This document shows positions 54,753 to 59,400 of a DNA stretch of 64,000 bases, piece by piece; position 1 is the first letter of the stretch; each line of letters opens with the position of its first letter. A program made the position numbers and the translations under genes. The DNA is from an uncultured Flavobacteriales bacterium (GTDB lineage: Bacteria > Bacteroidota > Bacteroidia > Flavobacteriales > Crocinitomicaceae): contig CAMLHZ010000007.1 in assembly GCA_946480085.1 (NCBI GenBank), positions 62,001 to 126,000 on the forward strand, in the 5' to 3' direction. The notes under the pieces are model-generated. The model worked only from the letters and a program-made list of their open reading frames with translations, ran no database searches and was not told the DNA's origin.

Positions 54753-55514
54753 TTAGTTCAGTTCCAGAGCAACCGGACAGTGGTCTGATCCAAAGATGTC
54801 GTTGTGTATAGTTGCAGATTTGATATGCGGAAGGAATGCCTCACTGGCTAAAAAGTAGTCAATCCGCCAGCCAACATTTTTCTCGCGTGCACCACCGCGG
54901 TAACTCCACCAGGAATACTTGACTTCGTCACCATTTTTAGCGCGCCATGTATCAACCAATCCTGCTTTGATCAAATTGTCCATACCATCAATTTCCTGCT
55001 GCATGTACCCCGCTGATTTGTTGTAATTCGCTTTTGGTCGAGCCAAATCGATACTTGTATGTGCAACGTTTAAGTCGCCACAAACCAAAACAGGTTTCTT
55101 TGCCTCTAGTTTCTTAATGTATTTCAAGAAGTCAGCATCCCATGCCTGACGATAATCCAAGCGTAACAATTCACTTCCGGAGTTCGGGACATAAACAGTT
55201 ACCAGATAGAAGTTTTCGTATTCGGCACAAATTACGCGACCTTCATTGTCGTGTTCAGCAATACCCATATCGTAGGTAACAGAAATTGGTTCTATTTTAG
55301 AAAGAATTGCAGTTCCCGAATAACCTTTTTTCTCAGCTTCGTTTACGTATACGAAAGGGTAATTCAAAGGAGCAACAGTTTCTTTTACCTGCTCAACGCT
55401 GGCTTTTGTTTCTTGCAAACAGATAACATCATAATTGTGTGTTTGCATATCCTTGATAAACGTTTTTCCGGCAATAGCACGCACTCCGTTTACATTAAAA
55501 GAAAGTAGTCTCAT
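54753..55514 (-). CDS. xth: Exodeoxyribonuclease III
   Basis: AP endonuclease/3'-5' exonuclease of the EEP superfamily in base excision repair. 253 residues. Motifs in order: LLSFNVNGVRAI, VICLQETKA (Glu metal ligand), VTVYVPNSG, VLVCGDLNVAHTSIDLARPK (Asp and Asn of the active site), YSWWSYRGGAREKNVGWRIDYFLAS (split: WSYRGGARE, GWRIDYFL) and GSDHCPVALEL (catalytic His). The frame begins upstream at 55571, but ATG 55514 starts the conserved LLSFNVN. Divergent from the fulvocin C-like operon. Confidence 0.95.
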   Translation of the reverse strand: MRLLSFNVNGVRAIAGKTFIKDMQTHNYDVICLQETKASVEQVKETVAPLNYPFVYVNEAEKKGYSGTAILSKIEPISVTYDMGIAEHDNEGRVICAEYENFYLVTVYVPNSGSELLRLDYRQAWDADFLKYIKKLEAKKPVLVCGDLNVAHTSIDLARPKANYNKSAGYMQQEIDGMDNLIKAGLVDTWRAKNGDEVKYSWWSYRGGAREKNVGWRIDYFLASEAFLPHIKSATIHNDIFGSDHCPVALELN

Positions 55515-55578
55515 GTTCTTTGAATTTTGGATAAAAATAACGCTATGATTCATTTGAAAGGAATTTTTCAAGAATTTA

Positions 55579-55607
55579 TTGTTTTTTGAAAAACACTTTT
55601 ATATTTG
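55579..55607 (+). promoter_or_regulatory. Promoter of the fulvocin C-like operon
   Basis: TTG at 55579-55581, 18-nt spacer, TATATTTG at 55600-55607, giving a leader of about 20 nt before ATG 55634. It lies inside the longer open frame starting at 55586, which supports the later start. Confidence 0.6.
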
Positions 55608-55633
55608 TTCTACTAACGTATAAATTATTCACT

Positions 55634-56236
55634 ATGAGAAAATTAGTTTTCTTTCTGGGGGGCATTGTGCTCCTTGCAACAGTTGCATGTTCAAAATCTG
55701 CGAATGTTAAAACCGAAAGGTCTGAAGCTGTTGAGTCATTTCAAAATTTAGAGAAAAGCACCGACCAGCGAATGGCATTTAGTTTATTAACGGTAAATGA
55801 AAAAGTAGATTTGGCAAAAGAGCATATCGATTTTTGTATTTCCTATTTCAATCTTACATCAACACAAGTAGGGATTTTGCAAAATGTGAAATCTAATTTA
55901 AGAGATATTTATTCTTCATCAGATCCTGAAAATGAACACGCGTTAATTGCTCTTGCTTTAGATATTCAGCAGTATTTTTCAAATTTATCTGATCGTGATG
56001 GTCAAATAATTTTTGATTCGATGGTTACAGATGAAGACGGAGTTAATGGAATTGCAACTCATAATCCGGATAAAATTGTTTCGTGTACATGTAGTTCGAA
56101 ATCAAACTGGTGTTCATCATCACCTTATGGGCCAAGAATCACTTGTGATAAATCTGCATGTAATGATCAGACATCTTCTGGTTGTGGAACTTTGTGGGGA
56201 TATGCCTGCAATGGTAAGTGTAATATCTTTGCATAA
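55634..56236 (+). CDS. Fulvocin C-related cysteine-rich lipoprotein (putative bacteriocin precursor)
   Basis: 200 residues. A lipoprotein signal ends with TVAC, Cys19. A helical acidic middle (about 25-148) follows. The last about 50 residues hold eight cysteines: C151, C153, C160, C171, C176, C184, C192, C196 (SCTCSSKSNWC...SGCGTLWGYACNGKC). As I remember the myxobacterial bacteriocin fulvocin C (45 residues, eight Cys), it has the same opening CxC-x6-C and GCGTxWxYACNG-like end; a database family 'fulvocin C-related' exists in Bacteroidota. So the protein looks like a lipid-anchored precursor with a releasable disulfide-rich tail. That release and a killing activity are inferred. The stop codon abuts the next ATG with no gap. 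Confidence 0.8.
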   Translation: MRKLVFFLGGIVLLATVACSKSANVKTERSEAVESFQNLEKSTDQRMAFSLLTVNEKVDLAKEHIDFCISYFNLTSTQVGILQNVKSNLRDIYSSSDPENEHALIALALDIQQYFSNLSDRDGQIIFDSMVTDEDGVNGIATHNPDKIVSCTCSSKSNWCSSSPYGPRITCDKSACNDQTSSGCGTLWGYACNGKCNIFA

Positions 56237-57085
56237 ATGAATGTTTTTCGAGCAATCGGGTGGATAATATTGTCCACCCTCATTTTTTTTGTTTTGTTCA
56301 TTGTTTTGCAATGGATTACTCATGAATTATTGCTGATTAATAGAATTACACATAACATTCTTGTTGTTGTTGTTGTTGGATTGGCTTCATATGCCTTACC
56401 GAAATATTATGGTGTTATCGGCTCCTCATTAGTCGCTCTTTTCTGGTTTTGTTTGATGATTTTTTCACATAATCTTTCTTATGAGCACATCACGATTTCT
56501 GTCATTATGTTACTTGGTGGTACTGCTGGGATGTTATTGAAAAAGAGAAGACACATTTTCTTTATAGCTTCAATTTTGGTTACTGTTGTCATTTTGGTTG
56601 CTGCTTATTTTAAGTATTCCACTATTGAGATTGTTTCAGTTTCTTCTGATGATAGATTATCAATTGATTTGGTTAACGAATCAAACGAGGAAGTGAAGAA
56701 TATGTTTGGTGAGAAATTATTTCTATCAAGGGATAGTGTTTACCTGATTAATTTCTCATTTTACGCCTGCCTCCCGTGTAGAAAAAAGAAAAAGACAATG
56801 AAGGAACTTGAAGAAAAGTTTAAAAACAAGCCATTTCGACTCATTAATATTCATTCTTTCGAATCTAAAAAGATGTATCTGGATTATTATAAAGATGAAC
56901 CTGAAACATATCATGATTCAGAACAACTACTTCAAAAGAAGTTCAAAATTAATGGAGCTCCGTTCGAGTTATTGTTTGATAAAAGTGGTTATGAAGTCCG
57001 TAGAATGGAAGGTTTTGACGCTGAATATAGCCAAGATTACCTGAATAAAACAATTAATGAAATATCAAAATTTTTAAAGAGATGA
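56237..57085 (+). CDS. Membrane protein with thioredoxin-like domain (CLPC)
   Basis: 282 residues. Four hydrophobic segments (about 7-27, 40-55, 60-78 and 88-125) form a membrane domain; the C-terminal part (about 140-282) looks like a thioredoxin-like TlpA fold with C178-L-P-C181 (NFSFYACLPCRKKKK) and a PFELLFDKSGYEV strand. Such domains handle disulfides outside the cytoplasm. Because it begins directly at the stop codon of the eight-cysteine lipoprotein and overlaps the next gene by ATGA, a role in forming or checking disulfides of that protein, or in self-protection, is a reasonable inference. Base composition is AT-rich. Confidence 0.72.
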   Translation: MNVFRAIGWIILSTLIFFVLFIVLQWITHELLLINRITHNILVVVVVGLASYALPKYYGVIGSSLVALFWFCLMIFSHNLSYEHITISVIMLLGGTAGMLLKKRRHIFFIASILVTVVILVAAYFKYSTIEIVSVSSDDRLSIDLVNESNEEVKNMFGEKLFLSRDSVYLINFSFYACLPCRKKKKTMKELEEKFKNKPFRLINIHSFESKKMYLDYYKDEPETYHDSEQLLQKKFKINGAPFELLFDKSGYEVRRMEGFDAEYSQDYLNKTINEISKFLKR

Positions 57086-57471
57086 GATACCGTTTAGCTT
57101 TTTTTATTGCGTTCTTCCAACTAATATGCTCATGTAATGAGTCCTCTGAATCAACTAAGAAAAATATGGATTCAGTCGTAGTGTTACCATCAAAGCGTGA
57201 TCTTGGAAAGGTTGAAAGTAGTGATTTAATTACTTTGAATTTTGAGATCATAAATAATTCAAATAAGGATATTAAAATCGTTTCAAAGGCAAAATCTTGT
57301 GGTTGCACAAATTTTGTTCTGCCTTCAGATAAGTTGAAAGCTAAATCTCACACAGTTGTAAATGTTGATTTTGATCCAACAAAAGTGAGTGGTGATTTTG
57401 AGAAATCTGTATTTTTCCGATTGGATAATGGAAAGATTTTGTTGTTTAAGTTTTCTGGTACTGTGGTTTAG
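57082..57471 (+). CDS. DUF1573 Ig-like lipoprotein
   Basis: 129 residues. A lipoprotein-type signal ends near Cys16/18 (FQLICSCNES). The body is one DUF1573 (ASPM-SPD-2-Hydin-like) beta-sandwich: KRDLGKVESSDLITLNFEIINNSNKDI (split: KRDLGKVESSDL, NFEIINNSNKDI), the typical KSCGCTNFVLPSDKLKA, VDFDPTKVSGDFEKSVFF. DUF1573 proteins are surface or periplasmic binding domains without an assigned reaction. It overlaps the thioredoxin-like gene by 4 nt and ends the three-gene unit. Its stop codon overlaps the stop codon of an ATPase remnant on the other strand. Confidence 0.75.
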   Translation: MRYRLAFFIAFFQLICSCNESSESTKKNMDSVVVLPSKRDLGKVESSDLITLNFEIINNSNKDIKIVSKAKSCGCTNFVLPSDKLKAKSHTVVNVDFDPTKVSGDFEKSVFFRLDNGKILLFKFSGTVV

Positions 57472-57816: not shown

Positions 57817-59400
57817 TTAGTTGCCCAAAGATTCCATTCTAAATTCCAATTTTTTCTCTTTTCGGTAGTATTCACCAACAGAAATAAATCCTGGTTTTGC
57901 CGCTTGAATCCAGAAGTACCAAGAGTTGCTATTGATAGGAACACGTTTTGCTGAATCATCACCTTCGCGAACAGAGATAACACCAATCATAATATCATTT
58001 TTCTTGATATCACCTTTTTGCTCTCTACGGTTAGCATCAATGTAAACAATGTCGAACTGATCTTTAGCTTCATCTCTTGAAGTGAAAGAATAATCGAAGA
58101 AACCTAAAGATTTGATGTAGTAACCCATTGTTGAAGAACTCATAAATCCTCCACCTGGGACATTTACAGATGTTTTCTTCTTAGAAACGATATCAAAATC
58201 AACCATTTTCTTGTTTTGGTCAAGTTCAATTACAACCATGTTTCCAACGCGTACTTCAAAAGCTCCTGCGTTTGTAGATCCACCTAGTGCAGCAACCGCA
58301 ACATTTGCAGCAATACCTCCGGCTGAAACTTGCTTACGGAATTGTTCTCCGATAAGGAAAATGTGTCCATTATCTGAAACTACGATGTCATGGAAGAAAA
58401 TACTAAATGGTTTATCAGCTTCTTTTTTGTCTTCCTCATCCATGTTTTCCATCTTGAATTTGTCGATATCACCTTTCCACGCGTATTGTGTACTGGAAAT
58501 TTCGTTTCCATTCAAATCCAATTCCATTGCGAAAATACCTTGACTTTTATCTTTCAAATAGTCGTCTTTAGGCTTAAAGTATTCACCAACAATGATAATC
58601 TTTTGTGTTTTTTCGTTGATAAACGATTTCAAGATTGATTTACGACCTGTTGCTTCAGTTCCTAATTGGAATTCTTTGATTTTCTTTCCAGTCTTTGTGT
58701 CAAGAACTAAACAAAACATATCGATTTCTTTCGTCATCATGTTTTTCTTCTTAGAAATTGTTGCCGTTAAGATGTTTTCAGAGACGTCAACAATCTCAGA
58801 TGTTTCAATCAATGTTGAGTTTGGATCTGGTCCAAATGTCCAAAGTTCTTTGGCGTCATTATCATAAGCCACAATTTCGTATCCAAGTTTGTTGTTCTTT
58901 ACGAAAGTGTTTCTAACGAAACCAGCGTTACCCATTGGGTAAATAGAAAGGTTCTCTGTCTGAGAAGTTGTGTTTTGTTCAATACGAGCTACTTCCCACT
59001 TGCTTAAATCATCTTTAGCAATGTTGCTTTTTCCCAATAAAGTTCCGCTTCTGTCATAAGAAACAAACTCCATTCCGGTTTTGTTGTTGTAGAACTGCAT
59101 CATAAAAGAAGATCCGTTATAAACCACTTCTAATAGAACGCTTTTCTTTGATTTAACGATTTCAAAATTTCCAGATTCATTGTAGTTGTCATCGAAAATC
59201 GCGATTTCGTAAGCGTTATTTTCTTTGTCAACTTTCTCTTTCATGTAGAATACGTAGTAACCAACAATTTTGTTGTTCTCAATAATAGTTCCTGAGTTTG
59301 ATGCGCTTCTTAGATTTAGTACGTTGGGTACGGTTGTTTGTGCAGTAAGTGTCCCAAAAGAAAGGGCAAGCGCTGCGATTAAGGTTTTTAGATTTCTCAT
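57817..59400 (-). CDS. Exported protein of unknown function
   Basis: 527 residues with a signal peptide ending at TLTAQ (about 21). The sequence is rich in short strands (KIVGYYVFYMKEKVDKENNAYEIAIFDDNY, NKLGYEIVAYDNDAKELWTFG, split) with recurring 'turn-Asp-Asn' patterns suggestive of a beta-propeller-like secreted protein. I do not recognise the family with confidence. There is no T9SS C-terminal domain, so it is probably periplasmic. The M48 protease gene lies 5 nt upstream on the same strand, so the two are likely co-transcribed. Confidence 0.7.
   Translation of the reverse strand: MRNLKTLIAALALSFGTLTAQTTVPNVLNLRSASNSGTIIENNKIVGYYVFYMKEKVDKENNAYEIAIFDDNYNESGNFEIVKSKKSVLLEVVYNGSSFMMQFYNNKTGMEFVSYDRSGTLLGKSNIAKDDLSKWEVARIEQNTTSQTENLSIYPMGNAGFVRNTFVKNNKLGYEIVAYDNDAKELWTFGPDPNSTLIETSEIVDVSENILTATISKKKNMMTKEIDMFCLVLDTKTGKKIKEFQLGTEATGRKSILKSFINEKTQKIIIVGEYFKPKDDYLKDKSQGIFAMELDLNGNEISSTQYAWKGDIDKFKMENMDEEDKKEADKPFSIFFHDIVVSDNGHIFLIGEQFRKQVSAGGIAANVAVAALGGSTNAGAFEVRVGNMVVIELDQNKKMVDFDIVSKKKTSVNVPGGGFMSSSTMGYYIKSLGFFDYSFTSRDEAKDQFDIVYIDANRREQKGDIKKNDIMIGVISVREGDDSAKRVPINSNSWYFWIQAAKPGFISVGEYYRKEKKLEFRMESLGN

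Follow-up and report, generated by a model that had tools for sequence, protein, structure and literature searches.

A fulvocin C-related lipoprotein gene and its membrane thioredoxin and DUF1573 partners in a Flavobacteriales contig: a candidate pro-bacteriocin cassette of Bacteroidota

Three adjoining genes are described here from a 64,000-nucleotide stretch of DNA of an uncultured Flavobacteriales bacterium (Crocinitomicaceae; GenBank assembly GCA_946480085.1, contig CAMLHZ010000007.1, positions 62,001 to 126,000), which is called the window throughout. The genes lie head to tail on the plus strand (55634-57471), flanked by minus-strand genes at 54753-55571 and 57817-59400. They encode a fulvocin C-related lipoprotein (gene 1), a membrane-anchored thioredoxin-like protein (gene 2) and a DUF1573 lipoprotein (gene 3). 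Gene 1 starts with an ATG at 55634, and its TAA (56234-56236) directly precedes the gene 2 start codon (ATG, 56237); genes 2 and 3 overlap by ATGA at 57082-57085, and gene 3 ends at 57471. Both junctions had been described in an initial annotation of this DNA, and both are present in the sequence. The protein family of gene 1 is known by name, and the set that it forms with a membrane thioredoxin and a DUF1573 protein appears to be the new part. No account of this combination was found in the literature searched, subscription papers lying outside the reach of that search, in line with the annotation's view that it is undescribed.

The gene 1 product carries a lipobox (TVAC, Cys19) and eight cysteines within its last 52 residues, and is predicted to be exported and lipidated. 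Against the NCBIfam hidden Markov model NF033852 ("bacteriocin fulvocin C-related protein") it scores 67.5 bits (cut-off 35), and the match covers positions 1-149 of the 150 in the model, so that the kinship with fulvocin C, proposed in the annotation from the tail, holds over the whole mature protein. The tail displays both the CxC opening and the GCG..CxG end of the family. In an alignment of 36 sequences C151, C153, C176, C184 and C192 are invariant, and C160, C171 and C196 are kept in at least 90%. The AlphaFold model places helices within residues 31-138, with a predicted local distance difference test (pLDDT) score above 85 for blocks 51-90. The lipobox, helical spacer and cysteine-rich tail that had been described at the outset are thus all seen in the sequence or the model. 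Identity to the closest relative, P0002, is 90% in the helical domain, 60% in the linker and 88% in the tail. Close relatives are few: a single-sequence search of 5.8 billion proteins returned 5 besides the protein itself, and a 36-row profile returned 18 in all, the window's own protein included; some of them already bear the NCBI name "bacteriocin fulvocin C-related protein". P0002 (83% identical to gene 1) and P0041 (56% identical to gene 2) are both reported from one contig of 1,639 bases, and probably represent the same piece of DNA, arranged as in the window.

Gene 2 is predicted to encode an inner-membrane protein with a thioredoxin-fold domain. It matches Pfam Thioredoxin_8 (PF13905) with 42.5 bits (cut-off 27) and carries the CxxC; the structure model and fold comparison assign it a TlpA/ResA/DsbE-like thioredoxin fold. 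Four membrane helices are found by the model and likewise by hydropathy, which confirms the earlier description of a CLPC thioredoxin-like domain joined to a four-helix membrane part. Among 24 relatives of gene 2, 22 match Pfam thioredoxin families at E <= 1. MauE proteins have a role in disulfide formation. The MauE family (PF07291) is absent among the Pfam matches listed for gene 2 (E <= 1) and among the 25 families shown for the 24 relatives.

Gene 3 had been taken for a small DUF1573 lipoprotein, and indeed shows both a lipobox (ICSC) and a match to DUF1573 (PF07610; 51.3 bits, gathering cut-off 26.1). A DUF1573 protein with UGC is tabulated as a selenoprotein in a published list (PMC13188914). 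The coordinates of the three genes and of their parts are collected in Table 1.

Table 1. Features of the three-gene locus, in coordinates of the window.
Feature	Position	Strand	Basis
Promoter-like TTG-N18-TATATTTG, 27 bases upstream of the gene 1 start codon	55579..55607	+	Pattern match; frequency in the window not above chance
Gene 1: fulvocin C-related lipoprotein, 200 aa	55634..56236	+	NCBIfam NF033852, residues 45-196
Lipobox cysteine 19 (TVAC)	55688..55690	+	Sequence; Cys19 invariant in 6 closest sequences
Conserved helical domain, residues 36-133	55739..56032	+	90% identical to P0002; model helices, pLDDT 72-94 for blocks 51-140
Fast-changing linker, residues 134-148; candidate cleavage zone	56033..56077	+	60% identity to P0002
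Eight-cysteine fulvocin-like tail, residues 149-200	56078..56233	+	36-sequence alignment
Gene 2: membrane-anchored thioredoxin-like protein, 282 aa	56237..57085	+	Pfam Thioredoxin_8; structure model
Membrane part with four helices at the N-terminus of gene 2, residues 1-128	56237..56620	+	Model, hydropathy; no Pfam family among matches listed
Terminator-like hairpin then TCATTTTTTTT, within first codons of gene 2	56258..56279	+	-15.3 kcal/mol, z -4.49, 0/200 shuffles as good
CLPC active-site-like motif, residues 178-181	56768..56779	+	Both cysteines invariant in 24 aligned relatives
Gene 3: DUF1573 lipoprotein, 129 aa	57082..57471	+	Pfam PF07610
CGC motif of gene 3, residues 73-75	57298..57306	+	CxC kept in 15/16 loci with a DUF1573 gene

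Matches to NF033852 are sporadic. They were found in 4 of 395 genomes from the phylum of genome G001 (3 above the cut-off), in 10 of 291 genomes of one order (9 above the cut-off), in 2 of 200 and 0 of 114 genomes from the two families to which the window's nearest genomes belong, and in 10/195, 12/121 and 8/199 (7 above the cut-off) genomes of three further families; these survey groups overlap in part. An initial genome scan with the gene 1 alignment had given 178 pattern stretches, none of them confirmed, and a DNA pattern of the tail then gave 14 loci. Among Bacteroidota, 43 places lie above the cut-off; a second copy sitting at the end of a contig was dropped, leaving 42 loci, and the places below the cut-off (G135, G640 and three in G1391) were left out.

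A partner was defined as a gene on the same strand and within 1.2 kb of the fulvocin gene, with at least three helices in the case of the membrane partner. So defined, a membrane-thioredoxin gene stands in 26 of the 42 loci, a gene matching only the membrane profile in 6, a DUF1573 gene in 16, and any gene with at least three membrane helices in 37; the respective numbers among 117 control open reading frames from the same stretches are 2, 0, 0 and 21. The profiles had been built from 16 of the 26 thioredoxin and 10 of the 16 DUF1573 loci, which were thus found by construction; 10 thioredoxin, 6 DUF1573 and all 6 thioredoxin-less loci were found independently. All ten DUF1573 neighbours tested pass PF07610. 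This neighbourhood survey, which the annotation had proposed, shows that the lipobox, the membrane thioredoxin and DUF1573 recur in other Bacteroidota: a loose lipobox pattern is present in 30 of 37 gene 1 sequences, the gene order of the window is repeated in six loci (L102, L104, L110, L122, L123, L126), and DUF1573 takes second place in L055 and L057. In 20 hand-picked genomes with 112 DUF1573 matches, 12 carry one at a distance of no more than 2 kb from the fulvocin gene, where 0.13 would be expected; these genomes were chosen without blinding, and 16/42 is the unbiased figure.

Full-length matches to gene 2 above 200 bits occur in 7 of 199 genomes of one family, and six of them are among its seven fulvocin-bearing genomes (P 6e-10, provided that both searches drew the same genomes); the seventh, G1527, holds an orphan copy. 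Weaker full-length relatives (122 to 134 bits; G1376, G300, G1394) have no fulvocin neighbour, and the membrane-thioredoxin architecture is therefore not exclusive to fulvocin operons. The gene trees run in parallel, with distance correlations of 0.65 for 20 pairs of genes 1 and 2 and 0.66 for 9 pairs of genes 1 and 3, which can be explained by common host descent as well.

Comparison of the partners shows which part of gene 2 is better kept. Six loci (L033, L111, L113, L114, L115, L116) have a partner without a thioredoxin domain, and a profile of five of these partners matches the membrane part of twelve membrane-thioredoxins (95.7% probability, E 9.8e-9). The CxxC is kept in 24 of the 26 membrane-thioredoxin loci and lost in L034 and L119. 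Since the thioredoxin domain may be absent and its CxxC may be lost, the membrane part is the more constant element. In L115 and L116, where the membrane partner has no thioredoxin domain, a MauE gene stands beside DUF1573. Four small membrane proteins (L116:5612-6043, L113:5562-6002, L111:2141-2626, L115:5503-5994) share an ELPxRVF-like stretch and show homology with gene 2 in its membrane part. The one scanned with Pfam (L116) has no strong match, and all four are candidates for a new family.

Beyond Bacteroidota, relatives of gene 1 were read at 19 loci (9 Myxococcota, 9 Actinomycetota, 1 Acidobacteriota). None of the three partner profiles matches at any of these loci (E <= 0.01), seven of which (L001, L003, L005, L010, L011, L013, L014) offer less than about 1.7 kb of downstream sequence for this check. 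Homologues lacking a lipobox and both neighbours, which the annotation had named as evidence against its reading, thus exist outside the phylum, where ordinary signal peptides prevail among the myxobacterial relatives; inside the phylum this holds in part, L099 and L100 having a lipobox and no partner. NF033852 matches 9 of the 59 genomes from the family to which the Myxococcus genome G004 belongs, 7 of them above the cut-off. The best of these matches, L038 (Myxococcaceae), encodes a protein of 205 residues with an ordinary signal peptide and the same helical domain; BLASTP aligns it with gene 1 over 155 residues (22% identity, E 2e-6), and the two tails align at all eight cysteines. Mature fulvocin C is a peptide of 45 residues with eight cysteines. 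The tail of L038 opens with ANCSC 45 residues from the C-terminal end, which suggests, provided that this length of fulvocin C holds, that fulvocin C is the C-terminus of an L038-like precursor.

Nine actinomycete loci (L001, L002, L003, L005, L008, L010, L011, L013, L014) display the same domain and tail within open frames of 333-392 residues, which reach upstream of the family match. In L004 (Myxococcus sp. CA023) a fulvocin-like tail is spread over two frames, representing a broken gene or an assembly error. The three below-cut-off places in G1391 (including L128:2842-3276 and L129:4902-5531) match the fulvocin family in the helical domain only; in the two that were read, a shorter cysteine tail of another kind forms the C-terminus, and partner genes were not seen there. 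The helical domain of the family may carry other tails, as judged from these sequences.

Based on this dataset, we hypothesize that the cassette encodes a lipid-anchored pro-bacteriocin of Bacteroidota with dedicated disulfide machinery, an explanation to which we assign an even chance. The helical domain would act as a pro-region, holding the tail in a harmless state and presenting it; genes 2 and 3 would introduce or rearrange the tail's four disulfides within the envelope, replacing the general disulfide machinery, which is reported as missing in Bacteroides (PMC6671954). The tail would then be cut off within the linker and released, with competing bacteria as its target. As the most constant partner, the membrane part of gene 2 may have a further role in maturation or self-protection. 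This hypothesis is supported by the linker changing faster than domain and tail, and by the sporadic occurrence of the family. It also draws on the NF033852 match across nearly all of the model, the L038 protein with its 45-residue tail, the recurrence of the partners and of their order, the CxxC and CxC that most loci keep, the MauE genes of L115 and L116, the ResA/DsbE-like fold of gene 2, and the precedents of the bacteroidetocins and gallocin A.

Several observations weigh against it. The tail of L034 keeps its eight cysteines although its partner has lost the CxxC, and the tails of L117-L119 have fewer cysteines. A membrane neighbour is absent from five of the 42 loci (L036, L099, L100, L105, L106), and in the nearest family searched the only genomes found to bear a fulvocin gene are those of L099 and L100. 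Many toxins are hypervariable; the tail is not, being nearly as conserved as the domain (88% versus 90%), and AlphaFold models it without confidence (pLDDT below 50; mean of the model 61.4). The three-gene set includes no protease or exporter. Furthermore, the pro-bacteriocin step leans on likeness to one bacteriocin, whose sequence dates from 1981, and killing, processing and redox direction are predictions from sequence.

Some of these points would fit a protein that is no toxin at all. Gene 1 may encode a disulfide-bonded envelope lipoprotein which is either a member or a client of a periplasmic thiol relay, and which has only its fold in common with fulvocin C. The lipid anchor in place of a secretion signal, the strong conservation of the tail, the redox-like nature of two of the three products, the lack of a conspicuous immunity gene or exporter, and the lack of a surface-export signal in the window protein (see below) are all consistent with such a role. 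However, presence in so few genomes (2/200, 0/114, 4/395) fits a core redox function poorly, homology spans both the helical domain and the tail of the myxobacterial precursor, and partners may lose the thioredoxin domain or its CxxC. We regard this explanation as doubtful.

Another possibility, which appears unlikely, is that gene 2 is an immunity protein, acting via its membrane domain or via a thioredoxin that reduces the disulfides of the toxin. ResA/DsbE-type proteins are reductants, and gene 2 has a fold of this type. Its membrane domain persists without thioredoxin in the six loci mentioned above, two or three copies of gene 2 are present in L058, L101, L112 and L124, one orphan copy stands in G1527, and gene 2 is the faster-changing of the two genes (50-62% identity, versus 88-90% for gene 1). 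Faster change may merely reflect membrane helices, however, and loci without any membrane partner exist. In bacteroidetocin loci the membrane protein and the thiol oxidoreductase are both needed for production, and neither of them confers immunity (PMC6671954). Immunity, which the initial annotation had considered, would be possible only for the membrane domain of gene 2.

The annotation had also favoured a contact-dependent or surface-tethered toxin. On this explanation the tail would stay attached and act on the cell surface, comparable to the BSAPs of Bacteroidales, described as surface-exposed lipoprotein toxins with an export signal (PMC12853789). The lipobox in most gene 1 sequences would agree with this, as would 6 of 39 N-termini compared (five from the family of G003) that show a pair of neighbouring acidic residues between +2 and +6; acidic residues after the lipidated cysteine are the surface-export signals of Bacteroidota as given in PMC5080379. 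In the window protein, however, Cys19 is followed by SKSAN, without an acidic residue at +2 to +6, and most relatives fit no better; among the myxobacterial relatives an ordinary signal peptide predominates. The proposal of surface tethering is thus not borne out, although the lineage's own signal may differ from the published type. A periplasm-facing anchor is the safer guess from the N-terminal sequence, and we consider a tethered toxin quite improbable. Least probable of all, and in our view very improbable, is a form of redox immunity in which the membrane domain of gene 2 would bind the toxin and its thioredoxin would reduce the disulfides and protect the producer, with DUF1573 as electron partner; if true, one operon would hold a toxin and a disulfide-specific antidote, and a bacteriocin would be disarmed by reduction.

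Expression of the cassette was addressed by pattern searches. The initial annotation had placed a single promoter ahead of the operon. A promoter-like match does stand at this exact position, but its frequency gives no signal above chance: 2 matches were found in the window against 1.86 expected, and only position favours the one at 55579-55607. The pattern TTG-N18-TANNTTTG was accordingly rejected as evidence for a promoter. A sigma-70 scan of the window gave 8 matches, below the shuffle mean of 11.5. The hairpin at 56258-56279 is a possible attenuator between gene 1 and genes 2-3. An attenuator as a feature of the family was rejected, because a terminator-like hairpin lies 3' of gene 1 in only 6 of 37 loci; among these six the partner gene lies downstream in the window, L055, L108 and L109. 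The hairpin sequence was not found in viral contigs.

An origin from mobile elements was likewise not supported. Searches by tblastn gave 47 pattern stretches in viral contigs, none confirmed, and no relative of gene 1 in plasmids or in phages; the distant relative L122 matches three Streptomyces plasmid records, none over more than 80% of the query. A defence origin was rejected as well, PADLOC giving a single unspecific match (gene 3, E 0.057).

The minus-strand neighbour at 54753-55571 is a gene which we take, from our own reading of its sequence, to encode an exonuclease III-type protein. Such genes also adjoin the cassette in L122 (6806-7567) and L123 (2963-3730), there on its other side; L122 and L123 share synteny, and the proteins are 39-40% identical. 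This may reflect chance or a preferred site. The window belongs to a Bacteroidota-like genome; its DnaB protein was compared with 148 genomes, the closest being 69% identical. The nearest genome region, L130, has dnaB and one neighbour in common with the window and none of eight other window proteins compared, including xth and the cassette. O-antigen-ligase-like (Wzy_C) genes of about 520 residues adjoin the cassette in members of the G003 family (L113:2831-4381, L118:5684-7252), and genes that resemble them by eye are present in L111, L112, L114, L117 and L119.

Fulvocin-related proteins are present in databases already, and the recurrent partners offer a first handle on their role in Bacteroidota: the membrane domain, to which no Pfam family is assigned, a thioredoxin that is optional, and a lipoprotein with CxC from the uncharacterised DUF1573. 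If the partners oxidise or reduce the tail, DUF1573 would gain a substrate; the cassette would then also show how Bacteroidota fold a peptide with four disulfides despite the machinery reported missing in Bacteroides (PMC6671954), and a bacteriocin family with few published data would become testable in laboratory strains.

Known systems resemble the cassette in part. BSAPs (PMC12853789) are lipid-anchored antibacterial proteins of the same phylum, a role that is predicted for gene 1; they differ by a MACPF domain and an export signal, neither of which gene 1 has, MACPF being absent among its Pfam matches at E <= 1. The BlpT/gallocin A locus (PMC10100652) also includes an envelope protein with a thioredoxin domain, which is required for gallocin A activity; gallocin A is a Gram-positive, two-peptide bacteriocin unrelated to gene 1. 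Bacteroidetocins, proposed as class IIf, come closer: these Bacteroidota peptide toxins require for their activity a protein with five transmembrane helices and a thiol oxidoreductase (PMC6671954), two functions that appear fused in gene 2. They are 42-residue peptides that contain four cysteines, carry a double-glycine leader and have a peptidase-ABC transporter (PMC6671954). Gene 1, unlike these, has a Sec signal with lipobox, 200 residues, a tail with eight cysteines that follows a domain of about 115 residues, and no short precursor with a double-glycine leader as in class IIf. Gene 2 resembles TlpA, ResA and DsbE in its fold and CxxC, and differs from them by the four-helix membrane part, which is without a Pfam family, and by scores far under the named equivalog and subfamily cut-offs (ResA 29 of 170, TlpA 26.1 of 230, DsbH 15.3 of 190 bits). 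Finally, compared with fulvocin C of Myxococcus fulvus and the fulvocin family (NF033852), gene 1 differs by its lipid anchor, in contrast to the ordinary signal peptides (by eye) of L038, L040, L041 and L043-L045, and by its membrane thioredoxin and DUF1573 neighbours, found at 0/19 non-Bacteroidota loci; it shares with that family the helical domain and the eight-cysteine C-terminal tail.

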